From positions 1,690,279 to 1,754,278 of the forward strand of contig NZ_LHCI01000106.1 in NCBI RefSeq assembly GCF_001280255.1: DNA of 64,000 nt, written 5' to 3'. A program made the position numbers and the translations under genes. The notes under the pieces were generated by a model. The model was not told where the DNA came from. It made no database searches and saw only the letters and a program-made list of their open reading frames with translations. Within the stretch, counting starts at the first letter, position 1; each line of letters begins with the position of its first letter. This document shows positions 51,807-64,000 of the stretch, one piece after another. This DNA is from Thermus aquaticus (GTDB lineage: Bacteria > Deinococcota > Deinococci > Deinococcales > Thermaceae).

Positions 51807-51839
51807 AAAAGGCCTTCCCCTCTCGCTACCGAAGGGGAA
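51807..51839 (-). terminator. Terminator of the interrupted tRNA-Arg gene
   Basis: On the minus strand, about 20 bp after the tRNA 3' end, TTCCCCT (51833-51839) pairs with AGGGGAA (51815-51821) and is followed by GGCCTTTT. It marks this as the original chromosomal downstream flank of the tRNA. Confidence 0.6.
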
Positions 51840-51857
51840 AGCTTTGCGTCCCCATCG

Positions 51858-51902
51858 TGGCGGGCCCGGAGGGATTCGAACCCCCGACCTACCGCTTAGA
51901 AG
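51858..51902 (-). other. Attachment site: 3' half of tRNA-Arg(UCU)
   Basis: From the minus strand: anticodon loop CTTCTAA (51896-51902), stem half GCGGT, variable loop AGGTC, complete T arm (GGGGG TTCGAAT CCCTC), acceptor strand CGGGCCC, G73 and CCA. The 5' anticodon-stem strand that should pair (ACCGC) is absent: the next bases read GACTC. So similarity stops exactly at the anticodon loop, as expected for a tyrosine-integrase crossover. An intact tRNA-Arg on the minus strand is predicted at the other end, beyond 64000. Confidence 0.75.
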
Positions 51903-52008
51903 GAGTCAAAAGCCTGTCCAGGTGTTTCCCGCTACTTCCAGGATAGGCCTTCCTTATGGGCTTTTTGGCCCTCAGGGGATGGTGTACCGGGGGGTGGAGT
52001 TAGGCCGA

Positions 52009-52028
52009 TAAGCTAACGGTAAGCTAAC
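52009..52028 (+). repeat. Two direct TAAGCTAAC repeats, candidate integrase arm sites
   Basis: TAAGCTAAC at 52009-52017 and 52020-52028, one helical turn (11 bp) apart, about 110 bp inside the left attachment site. Spacing and place fit arm-type sites for the N-terminal domain of a tyrosine integrase. Confidence 0.45.
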
Positions 52029-52118
52029 ACTGAGCCGCAACGATTCCATTCTCTTGAGGGGCACCCCCAAGGAGGCCTCCTTGCCCTCGAGGCCCCTCTC
52101 CCCTTCGCCCATCTCCTA

Positions 52119-52146: not shown

Positions 52147-52158
52147 GCCCTTGTGCGG

Positions 52159-52235
52159 GGGCCGTTAGCTCAGCTGGTGAGAGCGCCGGCCTTATAAGCC
52201 GGTGGTCGCGGGTTCAAGTCCCGCACGGCCTACCA
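52159..52235 (+). tRNA. tRNA with UAU anticodon (Ile, AUA)
   Basis: Complete cloverleaf: acceptor GGGCCGT / ACGGCCT (G1-U72 wobble), D arm GCTC...GAGC, anticodon stem CCGGC / GCCGG with loop CTTATAA, so anticodon UAU (52193-52195), T arm GCGGG TTCAAGT CCCGC, discriminator A and encoded CCA. Most bacteria read AUA with a lysidine-modified CAU tRNA, so UAU is uncommon. AUA codons are rare in these GC-rich genes. Confidence 0.85.
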
Positions 52236-52316: not shown

Positions 52317-53495
52317 ATGGAGGAGTTGAGGGAAGCCCAAAACCCCAACCCAGAGAAGGTAGAGGTACCCGTTCACCCGGACACCCTGCGATGGGCCCTC
52401 GAGTGGAGCCGCCTGGGGGTGGAAGAGGCCGCCCGAAAGGTGGGGGTGAGGGAGGAGAAGCTTCGCGCCTGGCTTGAGGGCCAGGCCAAGCCCACCTACG
52501 CCCAGGCCCGCAAGTTGGCCAAGGCCCTCCACTTGGGGCTTCCCAAGCTCCTCCTCCCGCCCCCGAAAGAAGGCCCCCAGCTCCCCGTGAAGGACTTGCG
52601 CCGCGGGCCCTCCTTTGGCGAGAGGCCAAGCCCAGAACTCCTCGAGGCCACCTACGATGCCCTGAGGAAGCAGGATTGGTGGCGGGAGAGGCGAAGGGAA
52701 CCCCTCCCCTTCGTGGGAAGCGGAAAGGCCAAGGCTCCCCATGAGGTGGCGGAGGAACTGAGGGAGCTTTTGGACCTTGAGGCCCTGTGGAAGGCCCCCC
52801 GGGTAGAGGACTTCCTCCGGGGGCTGGTAAGCAAGGTGGAGGAGCTGGGAGTCCTGGTGCTCAGGCAGGGGCACGTGGGGACTAACACCCGGCGGGTGTA
52901 TGACCCCGGGGAGTTCTCTGGCTTCGCCCTGGTAGACCATGTGGCCCCTGTGGTCTTCGTGAACGCCCGGGACTACTCCAGGAGGCAGGTCTTCACCCTG
53001 GCCCACGAGCTGGCCCACGTGTGGCGGGGGGAGGGTGGGCTGGACGGGGCCCTCGAGGAGGAGCCCCAGGCGGAAGTGGAGGCCTGGGCGGACGAGGTGG
53101 CCGCGGCCTTTCTCATGCCCGAGGAAGCCTTCCGGGAGGCCTGGCCCCAAGACCGCCCCCCTTTAGAGGCCGCCAGGGAAGCCTCTGAGCGCTTCAAGGT
53201 AAGCAAACTGGCCGCCCTCAGGCGGGCCTTAGGCCTGGGGCTCATCCCCAAGGGGAGCTTCCTGGAAGCCCTCGAGGCCCTGAAAGGGGGAGAACCCCCT
53301 CCCCCCCGTGGAGGGGGCGGGGACTTTTGGCGTGCTCTGGAGGTGCAGAACAGCCCCGCCTTCACGCGGGAGCTGAGAAAGGCGGCCCAAGAGGGGGAAG
53401 TGGATGCCAAGGAGGTAGCCTACCTCCTGAACGTGAGCCTGAGGACGGCTTGGGAGTTCCTCACCAGGGGGCAGAGTGAACCGGTATCTCCTTGA
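52317..53495 (+). CDS. HTH plus ImmA/IrrE-type zinc metallopeptidase
   Basis: 392 residues. Residues about 18-75 form an XRE-like HTH (TLRWALEWSRLGVEEAARKVGVREEKLRAWLEG is shortened here to its pattern: TLRWALE, EEAARKVGV, LRAWLEG). The ImmA/IrrE peptidase follows, with HELAH at 230-234 and a downstream EAWADEVAAAFLMPEEAF acid. Such proteins cleave repressors or act as antitoxins. It overlaps the PIN gene by 20 bp, a pairing known from toxin-antitoxin-like COG2856/DUF4411 loci. GGGGAGGG precedes the ATG. Confidence 0.82.
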   Translation: MEELREAQNPNPEKVEVPVHPDTLRWALEWSRLGVEEAARKVGVREEKLRAWLEGQAKPTYAQARKLAKALHLGLPKLLLPPPKEGPQLPVKDLRRGPSFGERPSPELLEATYDALRKQDWWRERRREPLPFVGSGKAKAPHEVAEELRELLDLEALWKAPRVEDFLRGLVSKVEELGVLVLRQGHVGTNTRRVYDPGEFSGFALVDHVAPVVFVNARDYSRRQVFTLAHELAHVWRGEGGLDGALEEEPQAEVEAWADEVAAAFLMPEEAFREAWPQDRPPLEAAREASERFKVSKLAALRRALGLGLIPKGSFLEALEALKGGEPPPPRGGGGDFWRALEVQNSPAFTRELRKAAQEGEVDAKEVAYLLNVSLRTAWEFLTRGQSEPVSP

Positions 53496-54045
53496 CGCGA
53501 ACGCTATCATAACGCCCTTTCACGAAGGACCGCTTCGCGCCCTGGCTTCCGCCTTGCGCCTTAGCCAAGAAGAAGCCAAGGTAGTCCTCGAGGACTGGCT
53601 AGAGGATGGGGTGTGCTCAGGCAGGTTCCTCATTGCTGACATGGTGCAAGAGGAGGTTCTTGGCGAGAAGGGGAAGGCAAAGCCAGGTTATGAAGCCCTC
53701 TGGAAGCTCAAGAACCGGTACAAACCCATCTCCCCCACCGGAAGGGAACTTGCCCTCTCGGCCGAAGTCCAGGCCTTTGTAGAGAAGCACTTCCAGCCTC
53801 ACGATGCGCAAAGCTTCGCCCGAGGAGCTGACCCCCTCCTTGTGGCCATAGCCAAAGCTCGGGGGCTCACCATCATCACACAGGAAAGGCACACGATACC
53901 CGAGGTTGACGGGAGAACCGAGCGCGTGAAGGGAAAGCCTACCCTACCCTACGTGGCCTTCGCCTTCGGAGTGCGGTGCCTGTCCCTCATGAGCGCCCTG
54001 GTGGAAGAGCCCCCAAAGCTCTTGCCAAAGCTCTTGCTTCTCTAA
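53476..54045 (+). CDS. PIN-like protein of the DUF4411 type (partner of ImmA/IrrE gene)
   Basis: 189 residues: YLLDANAIITPF at the start gives the first PIN aspartate, MVQEEVLG and ADPLLVAIAKARGLTIITQE give further acidic residues, and KPTLPYVAFAFGVRCLSLM closes the domain. PIN domains are metal-dependent RNases; this type usually follows an HTH-COG2856 gene and is expected to be the toxin. GTG start at 53476 inside the partner gene. Confidence 0.75.
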   Translation: MNRYLLDANAIITPFHEGPLRALASALRLSQEEAKVVLEDWLEDGVCSGRFLIADMVQEEVLGEKGKAKPGYEALWKLKNRYKPISPTGRELALSAEVQAFVEKHFQPHDAQSFARGADPLLVAIAKARGLTIITQERHTIPEVDGRTERVKGKPTLPYVAFAFGVRCLSLMSALVEEPPKLLPKLLLL

Positions 54046-54240: not shown

Positions 54241-54441
54241 TTTTAGAAAGAAGGGGGAAGCGAATAGCCGCAATAGCCGCAATAGCCGCGAAGCCCGTCT
54301 GGGAGGGCATTTCTGCCTGCGGCTATTGTGCGGCTATTGCGGGGAAGAGGGGGCGAATAGCCGCAAGTGGGCATGCCGTCCTGGAGAGCGTTTGCGGCGT
54401 TTGCGGCGTTCGCGGCTATTGCCCCGCCGCTTTTTCTAAAA
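54241..54441. repeat. Palindromic repeat element, copy 1 (intergenic, 201 bp)
   Basis: Ends are inverted: TTTTAGAA (54241-54248) and TTCTAAAA (54434-54441). Inside are tandem 9-mers AATAGCCGC (about 54263-54290), then a core like GCCCGTCTGGGAGGGC, then GCGGCTATT repeats; then a second module with AATAGCCGC, core GCCGTCCTGGAGAGC, GCGGCGTTT repeats and GCGGCTATT. The total is 67 x 3 bp. A second copy lies inside the ATPase gene at 60323-60535. Confidence 0.8.
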
Positions 54442-55120: not shown

Positions 55121-55149
55121 TTGACATAGTGCCTATACTTAGGTACTAT
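55121..55149 (+). promoter_or_regulatory. Main rightward promoter of the element
   Basis: TTGACA at 55121-55126, 17-bp spacer, TACTAT at 55144-55149. About 65 bp before the GemA-like gene, which has AAGGAG at 55201-55206. Confidence 0.7.
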
Positions 55150-56537: not shown

Positions 56538-56708
56538 GTGCGCGGGGGGTGCTGGGACGCGGGCCAGGCGGTGGAGGAAATCGCCGTCCTCCTTCGGGCC
56601 TGGAGGGCGGGGGAGCTGAGCCCGGAAGAGGCCCTCGAGGAAGTGGAGGAGGCCCTTTACCGCAACAACTTCGGGCCCCTCTTGGAGGAAAGCCGTGAAG
56701 CCGATTGA
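56538..56708 (+). CDS. Hypothetical small acidic protein (56 aa)
   Basis: GTG 56538 after GCAGGAGGTAGCC. Helical acidic protein ([30 protein letters not shown]). No family recognised. Overlaps recT by 14 bp. Confidence 0.55.
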   Translation: MRGGCWDAGQAVEEIAVLLRAWRAGELSPEEALEEVEEALYRNNFGPLLEESREAD

Positions 56709-57618
56709 GAAGCTGGAAGCGCTGGAGAAGAGGGAAGCCAGGCCCTCCCGTCAAGGGGAGTGGGGCCTGGCGGAAATAGAAAAGGCCGCCCAATACATGG
56801 CCAAAAGCGGCCTCTTCGGGGTCAAGGACCCCGTGCAGGCCGTGGCCCTCATGCTCCTGGCCCAGGCGGAGGGGACGCACCCCGCCCGGGCGGTGCAGGA
56901 GTACCACATCATTGGCGGGAGGCCCGCCCTGAGGGCGGATGCCATGCTGGCCCGCTTCCTGGCCGCCGGAGGGCGGGGGGAGTGGCACGCCCTCACGGAC
57001 GAGCGGGCTGAGGCCACCTTCTCCCACCCCCAGGGGGGCACAGTGCGCCTCGCCTGGACCCTCGAGGACGCTAAACGGGCGGGCCTCCTGGACAAGCGGG
57101 ACAGCGGCTGGCACAAGTACCCCCGGGCCATGCTTCGGGCCCGGCTCATCTCCGAGGGGGTGAGGACCGTCTTCCCCGGCGTGGCCACGGGGGTCTACAC
57201 CCCGGAGGAGGTCATGGACCTTCCTGAGCCCGCCCAGGTGGTCTCCCCCGCTAGCCCCCCGTCCCCCTCGAGGCCCGCCCCTCTCCCCTCTCCCGCCCCC
57301 ATCACCCCTGAGCAGGTGGGGGCCCTGGCCCAGGCCTTCTCTGCCCTGGGCCTCAAGGGGGAGCCCGCCCGGGAGCTGGCCCAGAGGCGGGTGGAGCGGG
57401 AGCTGGCCTCCATAAAGGACCTCACCCGGGAAGAGGCGGAAGACCTCCTGGCCTACCTGGAGGAGCTGGCCAAGGGCCTGGAGCCCTTCCCCCGGGCGCG
57501 CCGGGGAGAGCTCATTGGGGCCTGGCTCGAGGAGAACCCCAAGGGAGCCCCAGGGGTTCAGGACCTCCTGAGCCTCTTTGGCCAGCTCCAAGAAGAACCT
57601 GAGGAGGAAGCGGTATGA
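56695..57618 (+). CDS. recT: RecT-family single-strand annealing recombinase
   Basis: 307 residues. The core shows AEIEKAAQYMAKSGLFGVKDPVQAVALMLLAQAEGTHPARAV, YHIIGGRPALRADAMLARFLAAGG, DAKRAGLLDKRDSGWHKYPRAMLRARLISEGVRTVFP and GVYTPEEV (motifs cited in parts), the RecT/phage recombination pattern. A proline-rich linker (about 185-205) leads to a helical C-terminal region. No RecE-type exonuclease is adjacent. GTG start overlaps the small gene upstream. Confidence 0.8.
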   Translation: MKPIEKLEALEKREARPSRQGEWGLAEIEKAAQYMAKSGLFGVKDPVQAVALMLLAQAEGTHPARAVQEYHIIGGRPALRADAMLARFLAAGGRGEWHALTDERAEATFSHPQGGTVRLAWTLEDAKRAGLLDKRDSGWHKYPRAMLRARLISEGVRTVFPGVATGVYTPEEVMDLPEPAQVVSPASPPSPSRPAPLPSPAPITPEQVGALAQAFSALGLKGEPARELAQRRVERELASIKDLTREEAEDLLAYLEELAKGLEPFPRARRGELIGAWLEENPKGAPGVQDLLSLFGQLQEEPEEEAV

Positions 57619-58688
57619 GAAAAGCGCTTGACGGGGTGTGGGAGCACCCCGCCGCCCGAGTGGAGGACACCCCAAGTCTACCACAAGTGGAAGTCCTCCT
57701 GGGCCGCCTCGAGGGGGTGCGCCGCGCGGGGGCAGGCTCCTGGATGGCCCGGTGCCCCGCCCATCCTGACCGGAATCCGTCCCTTTCCATCGCCCTCCGG
57801 GATGGCCGCGTGCTCCTCCATTGCTTCGCCGGGTGCCCCCCTGAGGCCGTCCTCCAGGCCGTAGGGCTCACCTGGAAGGACCTCCGGGAGCCTGACCCCT
57901 GGGCCTGGAGGCCTCCCTTCCCCTCGAGGCCCAGGCCCCCCGAACCCGAAGCCCCTTCCCCCGAGGACCGGGAGAGGTGGGAGGCGTTGTGGGAGAAGGC
58001 GAAGCCGGGCCACCCTCTTCTCAGGCGCTACCTGAGGGCCCGGGGCCTCTCCCTGGAGCCTCCCCCTGCCCTCAGGCTGGCCTTCCTCAGGGGGGAGCCC
58101 GTCATGGTGGCCCGGGTGGAAGGGGTAAAGGGGCTCCTGGGCCTGCACCTGACCACCCTGGAGCCCGATGGCCGGGGGAGGAGGGAGAAGCGCCTGGTCA
58201 AGGGGAGCAGGCCCAAAGGCGGGGCCATCCGCCTCTTCCCCCTCGAGGCGGGCAAGCCCCTGGCCCTAGCTGAGGGCATAGAAACCGCGTTGGCGGTGCG
58301 GGAGGCCACGGGGTGGCCGGTGTGGGCCACCGTCGCCGCCGGGTTTATGCCCGGGGTGGCCCTGCCCCCGGAGGCCCATGAGGTGGTGGTGTGCCCTGAC
58401 CACGACAAGGCGGGCCTCGAGGCCGCCAAGGCCCTGGCCCGGAGGCTCCTCCGGGAGGGCCGGAAGGTGCGCCTGGCCGTGCCCCCCGTGGAGGGGGAGG
58501 ACTGGCTTGATGCCCTCAAGCGCCTCGGGCCTGAGGAAGTGGGCCGCTTCCTCCAAGGGGCCCCCGAGGTGGAGGCCTCCGAGGAAGGGGGCCTCGAGGA
58601 GGCGCAAAGAAGCCCCCAACCCTTGCCCCCGCGCCTGGCGTGGGCCCTGGCCCGCCGGGCCCGCATGAGGGGGGTGGCCCATGAGTGA
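57615..58688 (+). CDS. Element DNA primase: zinc finger plus Toprim
   Basis: 357 residues. Zinc site C47-x2-H50 (CPAHPDRNPSLSI) and C70-x3-C74 (LHCFAGC), as in CHC2-type primases. A Toprim domain follows: LALAEGIETALAVREATGWPVW and VVVCPDHDKAGLEAAKALARRL (DxD). No helicase domain; that function sits in the next gene, which overlaps by 8 bp. The layout resembles phage and plasmid primases of the Toprim_3 group. Confidence 0.82.
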   Translation: MRKALDGVWEHPAARVEDTPSLPQVEVLLGRLEGVRRAGAGSWMARCPAHPDRNPSLSIALRDGRVLLHCFAGCPPEAVLQAVGLTWKDLREPDPWAWRPPFPSRPRPPEPEAPSPEDRERWEALWEKAKPGHPLLRRYLRARGLSLEPPPALRLAFLRGEPVMVARVEGVKGLLGLHLTTLEPDGRGRREKRLVKGSRPKGGAIRLFPLEAGKPLALAEGIETALAVREATGWPVWATVAAGFMPGVALPPEAHEVVVCPDHDKAGLEAAKALARRLLREGRKVRLAVPPVEGEDWLDALKRLGPEEVGRFLQGAPEVEASEEGGLEEAQRSPQPLPPRLAWALARRARMRGVAHE

Positions 58689-60639
58689 GCACCTGGAAGC
58701 CATTCTGCAGGAACTGACCCCCGAAACCTGGAGGGATAAGCGCAACCCCCTCTTCGCGGCCATCGTGGAGGAGGGGCTTGACCATGTGGAGGCTGATAGG
58801 GTCCTGAGGGAGGCCGCCAAGCGCGTGGGGGCCACCCTGCAGGCGGTGCGGCAGGCCTGGCAGGACTTCTTGGGGCCCGCCCCCAAGGAGGACAACGCCG
58901 CCGCCGTGGCCGTGCGGCTGGCCCTGGAGCGGGGGGAGTTTTGGCACGCTCAGGACCGGGAACCCTGGGCCAGCGTCCCCGAGGGAGAGGGCATCGTGGC
59001 CCACTACCCCCTGCGGAGCCCTGCCTTCCGCGCCTGGCTTGCGGGCCTCTACTACCGCGCCACGGAGAAGCCCCTCTACGCCCAGGCCCTTCAGGACGCG
59101 CGGGCCGTCCTCGAGGCCAAGGCCCTCTACGAGGGGCCCCAGCACGCCGTCCATCCCCGGGTGGCCGAACACGAGGGCCGGGTCTACCTGGACCTGGGCC
59201 GGGAGGACTGGAAGGCCGTGGAGGTGGGGCCTGAGGGGTGGCGCGTGGTGGAGAGCCGGGCGTGCCCGGTGCGCTTCCGCCGTAGCCGCTACACCCGCCC
59301 GCTTCCCCTTCCTGAGCCCACCGGGCCCGAAGCCCTCGAGGAGCTGGCCGCCCTCCTGCCCCTCAGGGAACGCCGGGACTGGGCCCTGGTCCTGGGGTGG
59401 CTTGTCGGGGCCCTCAACCCCCGCGGGCCCTACCCCATCCTGGTCCTGACCGGGGAAAAGGGGAGCGGGAAGACCACCGCCGCCCTGGTCCTGAAGAGCC
59501 TCCTGGACCCCCAGGAAGGGGGGCTGAGGGCTGAGCCCAAGGACGAGGAGGCCCTGATGGTGGGGGCGAGGGGGGCGTGGATCCTGGCCTTTGACAACCT
59601 CAGCGCCGTGTCCTTGCGGCTAAGCGATGCCCTGTGCCGGCTGAGCACCGGAGGCGGCCTGGGAAAGCGGGAGCTTTACACCGATGGCGAGGAGTTTGTG
59701 ATGGAGGCCAAGCGCCCGGTGGTCCTGACCGGGATTGCGTTCGGGGCCCTCAGGGACGACCTGGCCGACCGCGCCGCCCTGGTGGCCCTCTCCCGCCTAA
59801 GCGATGAGGAGAGGCGGCCCGAGAGGGAGCTTTGGGAGCTCTTCGCCCGCCTTCACCCCCGGGCCCTGGGGGCCCTCCTCACCGCGGCCTCAACCGCCCT
59901 AAGGAGGTGGGAGGAGGCCCGGGCTGGCCTCTCTTCCCTCCCCCGCCTGGCCGATTGGGCGGTGTGGGCTGAGGCCGCCGCCCCCGCCCTGGGCCTCGAG
60001 GCCGGGGAGGTGGTGGCGGCCTTCTACGAGGTGCAGGCCGCTATGGAGCAGGACACCCTCGAGGCTGACCCCGTGGCCCAGGCCATCCTCCTCCTCACCC
60101 GGGACTGGCCCGAGGGGCACCGGAGGGAGTACCCCACGGCTGAGCTTCTGGCCAACTTGGAGCAGGTCATGGGCCTCGAGGAGGCCAAGCGCAAGCCCGA
60201 GGGGTGGCCTCGGACCCCCCAGGGCCTGGGCAAGCACCTCCCCCGCCTCCAAGCCGCCCTTCGCGGGGCAGGCATCGTCATTAGGGGTGAGCGCGACCGG
60301 AGGACCAAGAGGCACCGGTGGCTTTTAGAAAGAGTGGGGGGCACAATAGCCGCAAACGCCGCAAACGCCGCAAAGCCCCTCCAGGACGGCACTCCCGATT
60401 GCGGCTATTGTCCCCCCTCCCCGCCTCCAATAGCCGCAATAGCCGCGCAAACGCCGCAGGAGGAAACGCCGTCTGGAACGGCATCCGCGGCTATTGCGGC
60501 TAATGCGGCTATTGACTCCCCCCTTCCTTCTAAAACGGAGGAGACCCCCCTCGAGGCCCAGGACCCGTACCCGCCGCCCCCCCACTCCCGTGTCCTGGAC
60601 GGCGTGGAGGAGGTGAACGTGAAGGGGGTGGAGCTGTGA
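58681..60639 (+). CDS. Replication ATPase/helicase-like protein with repeat-encoded C-terminus
   Basis: 652 residues. The N-terminal third has no motif I recognise. Walker A GEKGSGKTT at 258-266, Walker B-like AWILAFDNLSAVS, and LTGIAFGALRDDLADRAALVAL resemble the D5/SF3-like ATPases that accompany primases in integrative elements. Residues about 548-618 are encoded by repeat element copy 2 and read as low-complexity Ile/Asn-Ala-Ala repeats; the last about 34 residues follow it. Overlaps the primase by 8 bp and the next gene by 4 bp. Confidence 0.72.
   Translation: MSEHLEAILQELTPETWRDKRNPLFAAIVEEGLDHVEADRVLREAAKRVGATLQAVRQAWQDFLGPAPKEDNAAAVAVRLALERGEFWHAQDREPWASVPEGEGIVAHYPLRSPAFRAWLAGLYYRATEKPLYAQALQDARAVLEAKALYEGPQHAVHPRVAEHEGRVYLDLGREDWKAVEVGPEGWRVVESRACPVRFRRSRYTRPLPLPEPTGPEALEELAALLPLRERRDWALVLGWLVGALNPRGPYPILVLTGEKGSGKTTAALVLKSLLDPQEGGLRAEPKDEEALMVGARGAWILAFDNLSAVSLRLSDALCRLSTGGGLGKRELYTDGEEFVMEAKRPVVLTGIAFGALRDDLADRAALVALSRLSDEERRPERELWELFARLHPRALGALLTAASTALRRWEEARAGLSSLPRLADWAVWAEAAAPALGLEAGEVVAAFYEVQAAMEQDTLEADPVAQAILLLTRDWPEGHRREYPTAELLANLEQVMGLEEAKRKPEGWPRTPQGLGKHLPRLQAALRGAGIVIRGERDRRTKRHRWLLERVGGTIAANAANAAKPLQDGTPDCGYCPPSPPPIAAIAAQTPQEETPSGTASAAIAANAAIDSPLPSKTEETPLEAQDPYPPPPHSRVLDGVEEVNVKGVEL
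60323..60535. repeat. Palindromic repeat element, copy 2 (inside the ATPase gene, 213 bp)
   Basis: TTTTAGAA (60323-60330) and TTCTAAAA (60528-60535) ends; two modules with AATAGCCGC/AACGCCGCA 9-mers, cores GCCCCTCCAGGACGGC and GCCGTCTGGAACGGC, and GCGGCTATT 9-mers. 213 bp is 71 codons, with no stop in the ATPase frame. Same architecture as copy 1. Confidence 0.8.
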
Positions 60640-63255: not shown

Positions 63256-63473
63256 GGCCAGGCCCGAAGGGGAGGGCCTCGAGGGGCCAAGCCCCCTCCC
63301 CGCCCCCCTCCCCTCGAGGCCCAGGACCCGGCGGAAGGCGGCAAAAAGCGGCAAAAGGCGGCAAAAGGCGGTCCTGGAGGCGGCAAAAGGCGGCGGAAGG
63401 CGAAAGAAAGCGGTCCGCTTTGGGGCCCCTACCCCAAATGAACCGCTATCGTGTGGCGTGATAGAATCCCCGT
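63256..63473. other. Gap with third repeat cluster and a leaderless promoter
   Basis: 218 bp. It contains the GGCGGCAAAA cluster at 63329-63420 and, directly before ATG 63474, the -10 TAGAAT (63462-63467). No gene seen. Confidence 0.55.
63329..63420. repeat. 10-bp GGCGGCAAAA repeat cluster with GTCCTGGAG core
   Basis: Four to five imperfect tandem copies of GGCGGCAAAA on the left and two on the right of GGTCCTGGAGG (63370-63380). The core matches the GTCCTGGAG of the 54241 and 60323 elements, but TTTTAGAA ends are absent. The right edge ends in the inverted AAGCGG/CCGCTT. Confidence 0.65.
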
Positions 63474-63719: not shown

Positions 63720-63853
63720 GGTGGCTTTGGCGGCTTCTCAGGCTCATAGGGGACGTGAAGGCCCTCTCCCGGGGGCGGCTTCCCAAGCGCCTGGCCTGGA
63801 GGTGGGCCAAGAGGACCCTGAGGCGGGCGGGAAGGCGAAGGGGGTGGTGGTGA
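63716..63853 (+). CDS. Hypothetical small basic protein (45 aa)
   Basis: GTG 63716 (GGAGGAGGAAGC upstream): MRWLWRLLRLIGDVKALSRG... and RRAGRRRGWW at the end, very rich in Arg and Trp. Between an unknown gene and the integrase; an excisionase-like role is possible by size and place but no motif shows it. Overlaps the integrase ATG by 1 bp. Confidence 0.5.
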   Translation: MRWLWRLLRLIGDVKALSRGRLPKRLAWRWAKRTLRRAGRRRGWW

Positions 63854-64000
63854 TGGCCCGGCGGGCCACTCGAGGCACGGGCACGGTCTTCTTCAGCAAG
63901 GAGCGGCGGAGGTGGATGGCCCAACTGACGGTGGGGCATGACCCGAAGACGGGCCGCCCCAAGAAGCTCACCCGGTCTTTCCCCACCAAGCGGGAGGCGG
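63853..64000 (+). CDS. int: Tyrosine integrase, N-terminal arm-binding domain (cut by window edge)
   Basis: 49 codons from ATG 63853: RGTGTVFFSKERRRWMAQLTVG, then KTGRPKKLTRSFPTKREA. This is the AP2-like arm-type DNA-binding start (a short three-stranded sheet with G-x-W-A then K-FPTK-EA) of Tn916/lambda-type integrases. The catalytic R...HxxR...Y part would lie beyond 64000. Reading direction points to the predicted intact tRNA-Arg at the right end. Confidence 0.75.
   Translation, partial: MARRATRGTGTVFFSKERRRWMAQLTVGHDPKTGRPKKLTRSFPTKREA

Follow-up and report, generated by a model that had tools for sequence, protein, structure and literature searches.

We found that a 201-base intergenic array in Thermus aquaticus is most probably a spare duplicate of the site at which a small mobile element starts its replication. 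The array (copy 1, positions 54241–54441, minus strand) was found in the window, by which we mean the whole 64,000-nucleotide stretch of DNA analyzed here, between a DUF4411 gene and ORF 54556. A related array (copy 2, 60323–60535, plus strand) lies 6 kb away in the opposite direction, within the 3′ end of an ATPase gene with which it is translated in frame, and both arrays are held by one integrated element of about 13.3 kb. We consider it likely that the iterons of both arrays are binding sites for the ATPase that the element encodes, with copy 2 as the standard origin and copy 1 as a second origin or a cis-acting site.

Each copy consists of two modules, in each of which inward-facing 9-bp iterons on both sides enclose a 31-bp core. 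Module 1 of copy 1 starts with three tandem AATAGCCGC iterons (54263–54289, plus strand), which are followed by a 31-bp gap between facing iterons (54289–54319) with the core CCCGTCTGGGAGGGC and by two reverse iterons (54319–54338, minus strand; 54319–54327 and 54330–54338). Module 2 comprises a single AATAGCCGC iteron (54356–54364, plus strand), a 31-bp gap (54364–54394) with the core GCCGTCCTGGAGAGC and three reverse iterons (54394–54420, minus strand; AAACGCCGC, GAACGCCGC and AATAGCCGC). The iteron order is therefore + + + core - - followed by + core - - - in copy 1, and + + + core - followed by + + + core - - - in copy 2. In each of the four modules, the starts of the facing iterons were separated by exactly 40 bp.

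The shared TTTTAGAA/TTCTAAAA ends and the two-module iteron structure, both pointed out in an earlier note on this DNA, proved to be real. The four matches of TTTTAGAA in the window, where 0.20 were expected by chance and 0 of 100 shuffles reached four, were the exact ends of the two copies (54241 and 60323, and on the reverse strand 54434 and 60528). All of the 13 window matches of AATAGCCGC (0.14 expected) and all four of AAACGCCGC (0.30 expected) were located inside copy 1 or copy 2. The division of each half into repeats, a core and repeats was also right as a layout, but the arms are not all AATAGCCGC, given the AAACGCCGC and GAACGCCGC iterons in module 2 of copy 1, and the core type put forward, GCCGTCCnGGAnGGC, fits the two actual cores of copy 1 approximately only. 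A MAFFT alignment of 14 modules revealed two types, in which the distance from the left iteron to a TCCAGGA-like core is either 9 or about 15 bases; because the core offset differs between the two types, the modules of one copy are roughly mirror images of each other. No AT-rich melting region was found between the iteron sets of either copy, where the cores are G+C-rich, and local AT peaks of 0.56–0.60 were located at the outer ends (99th percentile of the element, 0.52).

The ATPase gene (58681–60639, plus strand) is the only one of its kind in the genome and adjoins a gene for a TOPRIM (DnaG-like) primase (57615–58688, plus strand), primase and helicase being separate genes. The 652-aa ATPase had no Pfam, PHROG or NCBIfam match, and its sequence comparison with solved structures gave P-loop matches only, among the matches listed. 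Its AlphaFold model (pLDDT 86.0, pTM 0.78) has a C-terminal winged helix at residues about 481–551 (60121–60333, plus strand), the presumed iteron reader. The top Foldseek match of the model was the SaPI5 primase-helicase (7ola, E 1.7e-8), followed by AsfvPrimPol, NrS-1, SCCmec Cch and D5/E5, and the comparison with the SaPI5 initiator-helicase gave a Z of 20.1 with an rmsd of 5.8 over 368 residues (model 70–543; VIA). The modeled fold thus predicts the ATPase to be a self-loading D5/SaPI-Rep-type initiator-helicase.

The DNA encoding the winged helix ends where copy 2 starts, and copy 2 forms the in-frame C-terminal tail of the ATPase. Within a single tail, same-strand iterons are distributed over different reading frames, for example 5 and 5 in the Thermaceae homologues L034–L036, and the same was true of 50 of 57 distant relatives. 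The sole TTA codon of the ATPase gene is located inside the TTTTAGAA boundary in the window as well as in L034, L035 and L036. A TTA was found at the left boundary of the array in 8 of 11 elements and was absent there in L042–L044. Because one iteron appears in several reading frames and the TTA codon is kept at TTTTAGAA, the sequences indicate that the constraint on the translated array acts at the DNA level. A protein-level repeat, such as NAANAA with a function as a peptide, was rejected for the iterons lying in several frames.

We then scored arrays in relatives, using the 400 bp after the winged helix and 9-mers occurring at least twice per strand, against all other windows of the same locus; the score is a simple count, and kinship among loci was handled roughly, by clustering. 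In the Thermaceae, 10 homologues (L034–L040 and L042–L044) had an inverted 9-mer array after the winged helix that beat every background window of the same locus, with 0 of 100 shuffles each. The tally was 10 of 12, the two misses being L041, where the array is 3′ of the gene and not inside it (TCCGGAGA-type iterons, cores CCGTCCTGGACGG), and the window itself. Copy 2 scored 7, below the 9 of the highest background window in this element, and 7 was reached by 8 of 31 background windows of the element and by 0 of 100 shuffles; the two iteron types of the window probably split its array score. The iterons varied by element, with CCCCCGCAA in L034–L036, CCACCGCAA in L037, L038 and L040, CTACCGCAA in L039 and AATGTCACC in L042–L044. 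The 40-bp facing distance was found in 14 of the 28 Thermaceae modules listed, including the four of the window, and the conservation of module order, whose absence the earlier note had named as a refutation, was borne out by the + - + - order in 10 of 11 elements read, L039 having one switch. Together, the predicted ATPase fold, the 3′-end arrays in relatives and the kept order and register lend good support to the suggestion that the repeats would be iterons for the element's replication protein.

Among genome loci from many phyla, 57 of the 80 scored carried an array right after the winged helix of the helicase, and the other 23 were below the array cut-off; 82 loci had been taken, of which L180 and L184 were dropped for too short a tail. 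Every iteron was inside the ORF in 50 of the 57 array-bearing loci, and the + - + - order was found in 30. These 57 loci include duplicates (the L142 array is that of L198, and L188 equals L189) and fall into 34 clusters at 70% ATPase identity. Among viral loci, arrays were detected in 10 of 21 in one set and in 27 of 66 in another, the 21 being those background-scored out of 80 and the rest, mostly a negative marine clade, being scored without background; L263 was also dropped from the scoring that covered the 66-locus viral set and L120 from the one that covered the marine phages. In the marine phage clade L065–L119, an array 3′ of the helicase was absent, with a score of 0 in 52 of 55 loci and of 4 in three, and it was likewise absent 3′ of the helicase in two Methylobacterium plasmids and three short Thermus homologues. 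One of four plasmids carried the array, the archaeal 12-kb Methanothrix plasmid pH6Ac (L045 4325–4605), whose layout is the same in-gene layout, and the arrangement therefore crosses domains; in pFP11, the array is several hundred bp downstream. Single-protein scans of genome contigs and of viral contigs found nothing. Divergence of the winged helix correlated with that of the iterons over all 57 loci (partial r 0.231, 1 of 2000 permutations), and the correlation after thinning to 34 representatives was 0.101 (171 of 2000 permutations); co-evolution of winged helix and iterons is thus hinted at by the full set of 57 but not significant in the 34 representatives.

Copy 1 is copy 2 reversed, with 78% identity on the minus strand. 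Its reverse complement can be aligned with copy 2 between TGGCTTTTAGAA and TTCTAAAA, the similarity scarcely extending beyond these, and the flanks of the two copies are unrelated (8 matches, 12 mismatches). The copies differ at 6 of 89 iteron positions compared with 31 of 112 positions in the remaining array (Fisher p 1e-4), and an 11-bp indel between them breaks the reading frame but leaves the 40-bp register intact. As the iterons and the register were kept despite the broken frame, copy 1 appears to have kept what a binding site needs after leaving the gene. Throughout the genome, the tandem pair AATAGCCGCAATAGCCGC with up to two mismatches was found only in copies 1 and 2 and in a third copy at C106:1948333–1948524 (L007:10012–10203), which is 95% alike with exactly one 9-bp iteron missing. 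Copy 3 and copy 1 have about 850 bp of common homology that includes the flanks and extends well past the array ends. Of 66 relatives, 0 had a second array in the loci examined, and a copy 1-like array was found in 0 of 11 other Thermaceae loci (blastn, E 1e-3), the decayed sister element on L007 being the only other case. Because no second array was found in these relatives, the role of copy 1 cannot rest on conservation, and the idea that the family generally has such a copy was set aside as unsupported.

In the mechanism that we propose, the 9-bp iterons would be bound by the C-terminal winged helix of the ATPase, and the two iteron sets of a module, which face inward across an off-centre core at a spacing of 40 bp, would position two opposed helicase rings, which would then melt the DNA. 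With priming by the TOPRIM primase of the element, the excised 13-kb circle could be copied. Copy 2, which lies at the 3′ terminus of the ATPase gene and encodes the tail of the protein, would be the standard origin of the helicase family, and copy 1 would be a duplicate trimmed to exactly the array and placed intergenically in the opposite direction. By analogy with ori and crr of satellite phage P4, the two copies most likely act together, copy 1 being a second origin or a cis-acting replication site. In P4, ori and crr are two distant iteron arrays used by one element-encoded helicase, the alpha protein, which is a fused primase-helicase. The Thermus element may be similar in having two separate arrays and one presumed reader, but differs from the fused alpha in that its primase and helicase are in separate genes. 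The P4 crr is mentioned in passing as 'ccr' in the PICI literature (PMC6092414).

Several features of this arrangement are found in better known systems. SaPI Rep uses its C-terminal domain to bind iterons located immediately 3′ of rep, the direct repeats bound by Cch2 are likewise found 3′ of the Cch2 gene (PMC7581432), and PICI origins have two iteron sets (PMC6092414). The predicted helicase fold and the C-terminal winged helix are common to SaPI5 Rep (7ola) and the Thermus ATPase, and SaPI/PICI elements likewise have element-specific iterons at the rep 3′ end (PMC6092414, PMC7581432). On the other hand, the SaPI/PICI origin is downstream of rep whereas copy 2 is inside the gene and translated, the iteron sets flank an AT-rich region there but a G+C-rich core at a fixed distance here, and the Thermus element has a separate primase of the TOPRIM type and a second array 6 kb away. 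In Streptomyces, a relative of the ATPase (36%) is encoded on pFP11 and followed by an inverted iteron array, and RepA of pWTY27 footprints two blocks of an inverted array of 7–8-bp repeats with the loop unprotected (PMC3583192); in both plasmids the array is outside the gene. The origin of pSK41 is inside the initiator gene, its repeats being translated as a linker (PMC5703833), but the initiator is of another family (RepA_N) and the repeats are mid-gene. For ORF904 of the Sulfolobus plasmid pRN1, also a winged-helix helicase, a cis structure 3′ of the gene is required whose layout is kept and whose sequence is variable, but it is a long stem-loop outside the gene and not a set of iteron modules (PMC4234260).

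It is also conceivable, but in our view unlikely, that the initiator binds copy 1 as well and yet copy 1 is no origin, serving instead for titration or coupling of initiator molecules in copy-number control or incompatibility, or for regulation of the neighboring genes. Copy 1 has the full layout of a binding site at an intergenic position 6 kb from copy 2, and one array suffices in other elements, both of which agree with such a role. However, copy 1 retains its two cores, the 40-bp register and the motifs at both ends, which is more than a titration site should need, and the sole promoter-like match near copy 1 (55121–55149) is about 680 bp off, which speaks against regulation.

We regard it as very improbable that the array acts as an RNA or single-stranded DNA hairpin or a cruciform, e.g. 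as a priming site or an attenuator, and not through protein-binding iterons. Folding, proposed earlier as a check, was indeed far above shuffles (z -5.25 for DNA and -7.13 for RNA), but any inverted array would do likewise. Facing iterons also covary, with 85.7% of the cells paired over 14 modules, a level reached by 0 of 500 shuffles, and a stem-loop 3′ of the replication gene is required in pRN1 (PMC4234260); yet the same covariation is expected from concerted iteron change, from which pairing is inseparable in these data. The facing iterons are of differing type in three of the four window modules, with 6–7 of 9 pairs left, which weakens a strict hairpin, the numbers of iterons are unequal between the strands, and a hairpin would make tandem 9-bp copies unnecessary. 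In addition, copies 1 and 2 are in opposite directions, and an Rfam scan of the window gave one tRNA as its sole match and none for the array. The earlier idea that structure is kept over sequence thus holds for the layout and for iterons that change in concert, but not for strict base pairing.

The possibility, also raised earlier, that a non-autonomous transposable element (a MITE with TTTTAGAA inverted ends) had inserted intergenically and into the ATPase gene has its inverted 8-bp ends, the near-exact unit boundaries in both copies and the unrelated flanks of copies 1 and 2 in its favor, but we rejected it as having hardly any probability, given that the genome has only three copies, all in the element or its decayed sister, that the single match among 27 genomes of the genus was the window's own with none in the 26 others, that no target duplication was seen by eye at the flanks AAGTCC/GCCAGG (copy 1) and GTGGC/CGGAGG (copy 2), that homology continues past the ends of copy 3, and that in Thermaceae elements with different iterons the left end falls at a codon position conserved after the winged helix, so that copy 2 is not an insertion.

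Extending the reading of the arrays as initiator-bound origins, we see an about equal case for and against a widespread class of prokaryotic origins, in which the iterons encode the tail of the very initiator-helicase by which they are read and form a rigid module, with an off-centre core, a fixed spacing of the facing iterons and mirror-image module pairs, that docks two opposed rings, with the Thermus element having two such origins facing opposite ways. What sets the Thermus element apart from the known systems is the helicase family, the position of the array within the C-terminal tail, a core that is G+C-rich and held in a fixed register, and the reversed second copy; no published account of the exact layout was found in an open-licence literature library, which is weak evidence. 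If this is right, a large helicase family of bacteria, archaeal plasmids and viruses, for the most part unannotated, would have origins readable from sequence, and every origin would come with an iteron code and a presumed reader domain of its own. The fixed register would make the opposed-ring assembly of self-loading helicases testable on short DNA, and in-tail origins would account for the odd three-residue repeats in these proteins, which would otherwise pass for protein features.

The element that holds the arrays is bounded on the left by attL (51824–51903), an 80-bp partial copy (92.5%) of the end of tRNA-Arg(TCT), and attR is the tRNA-Arg(TCT) end outside the window (L008 13425–13504). 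At its right end is a tyrosine integrase gene (63727–64000, plus strand; identified by eye from the translation), the frame of which continues past the window to L008 13382. A RecT-like single-strand annealing protein (56695–57618, plus strand) is encoded before the primase, and further genes encode an HTH-ImmA/IrrE-type protein, a DUF4411 protein and a DNA methylase. The HTH-ImmA/IrrE gene followed by the DUF4411 gene (52317–54045) resembles a toxin-antitoxin or defence pair. Between the methylase and integrase genes, periodic G+C-rich direct repeats with units of 10, 20 and 42 bp were found at 63335–63416 (CGGCAAAAGG, with GTCCTGGAG in the middle); they were rejected as a third site, being direct rather than inverted and having a different iteron. 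The decayed sister element beside tRNA-Ala(TGC) (L007 8900–16500) keeps copy 3, a tRNA-Ile and a frameshifted integrase, has no primase or ATPase, and contains a putative mgtE-like gene, transposase pieces and a masked stretch, the integrase and transposase pieces being identified by eye from translations. Its tRNA-Ile(TAT) (L007 9056–9132) has a counterpart with the same TAT anticodon just inside the left end of the intact element (window 52158–52234; L008 438–514), and the ATPase gene has three ATA codons, all within the translated array. Finally, a direct repeat, TAAGCTAACGGTAAGCTAACA, was found near both element ends (window 52004–52029; L008 13383–13407), possibly representing arm sites of the integrase.
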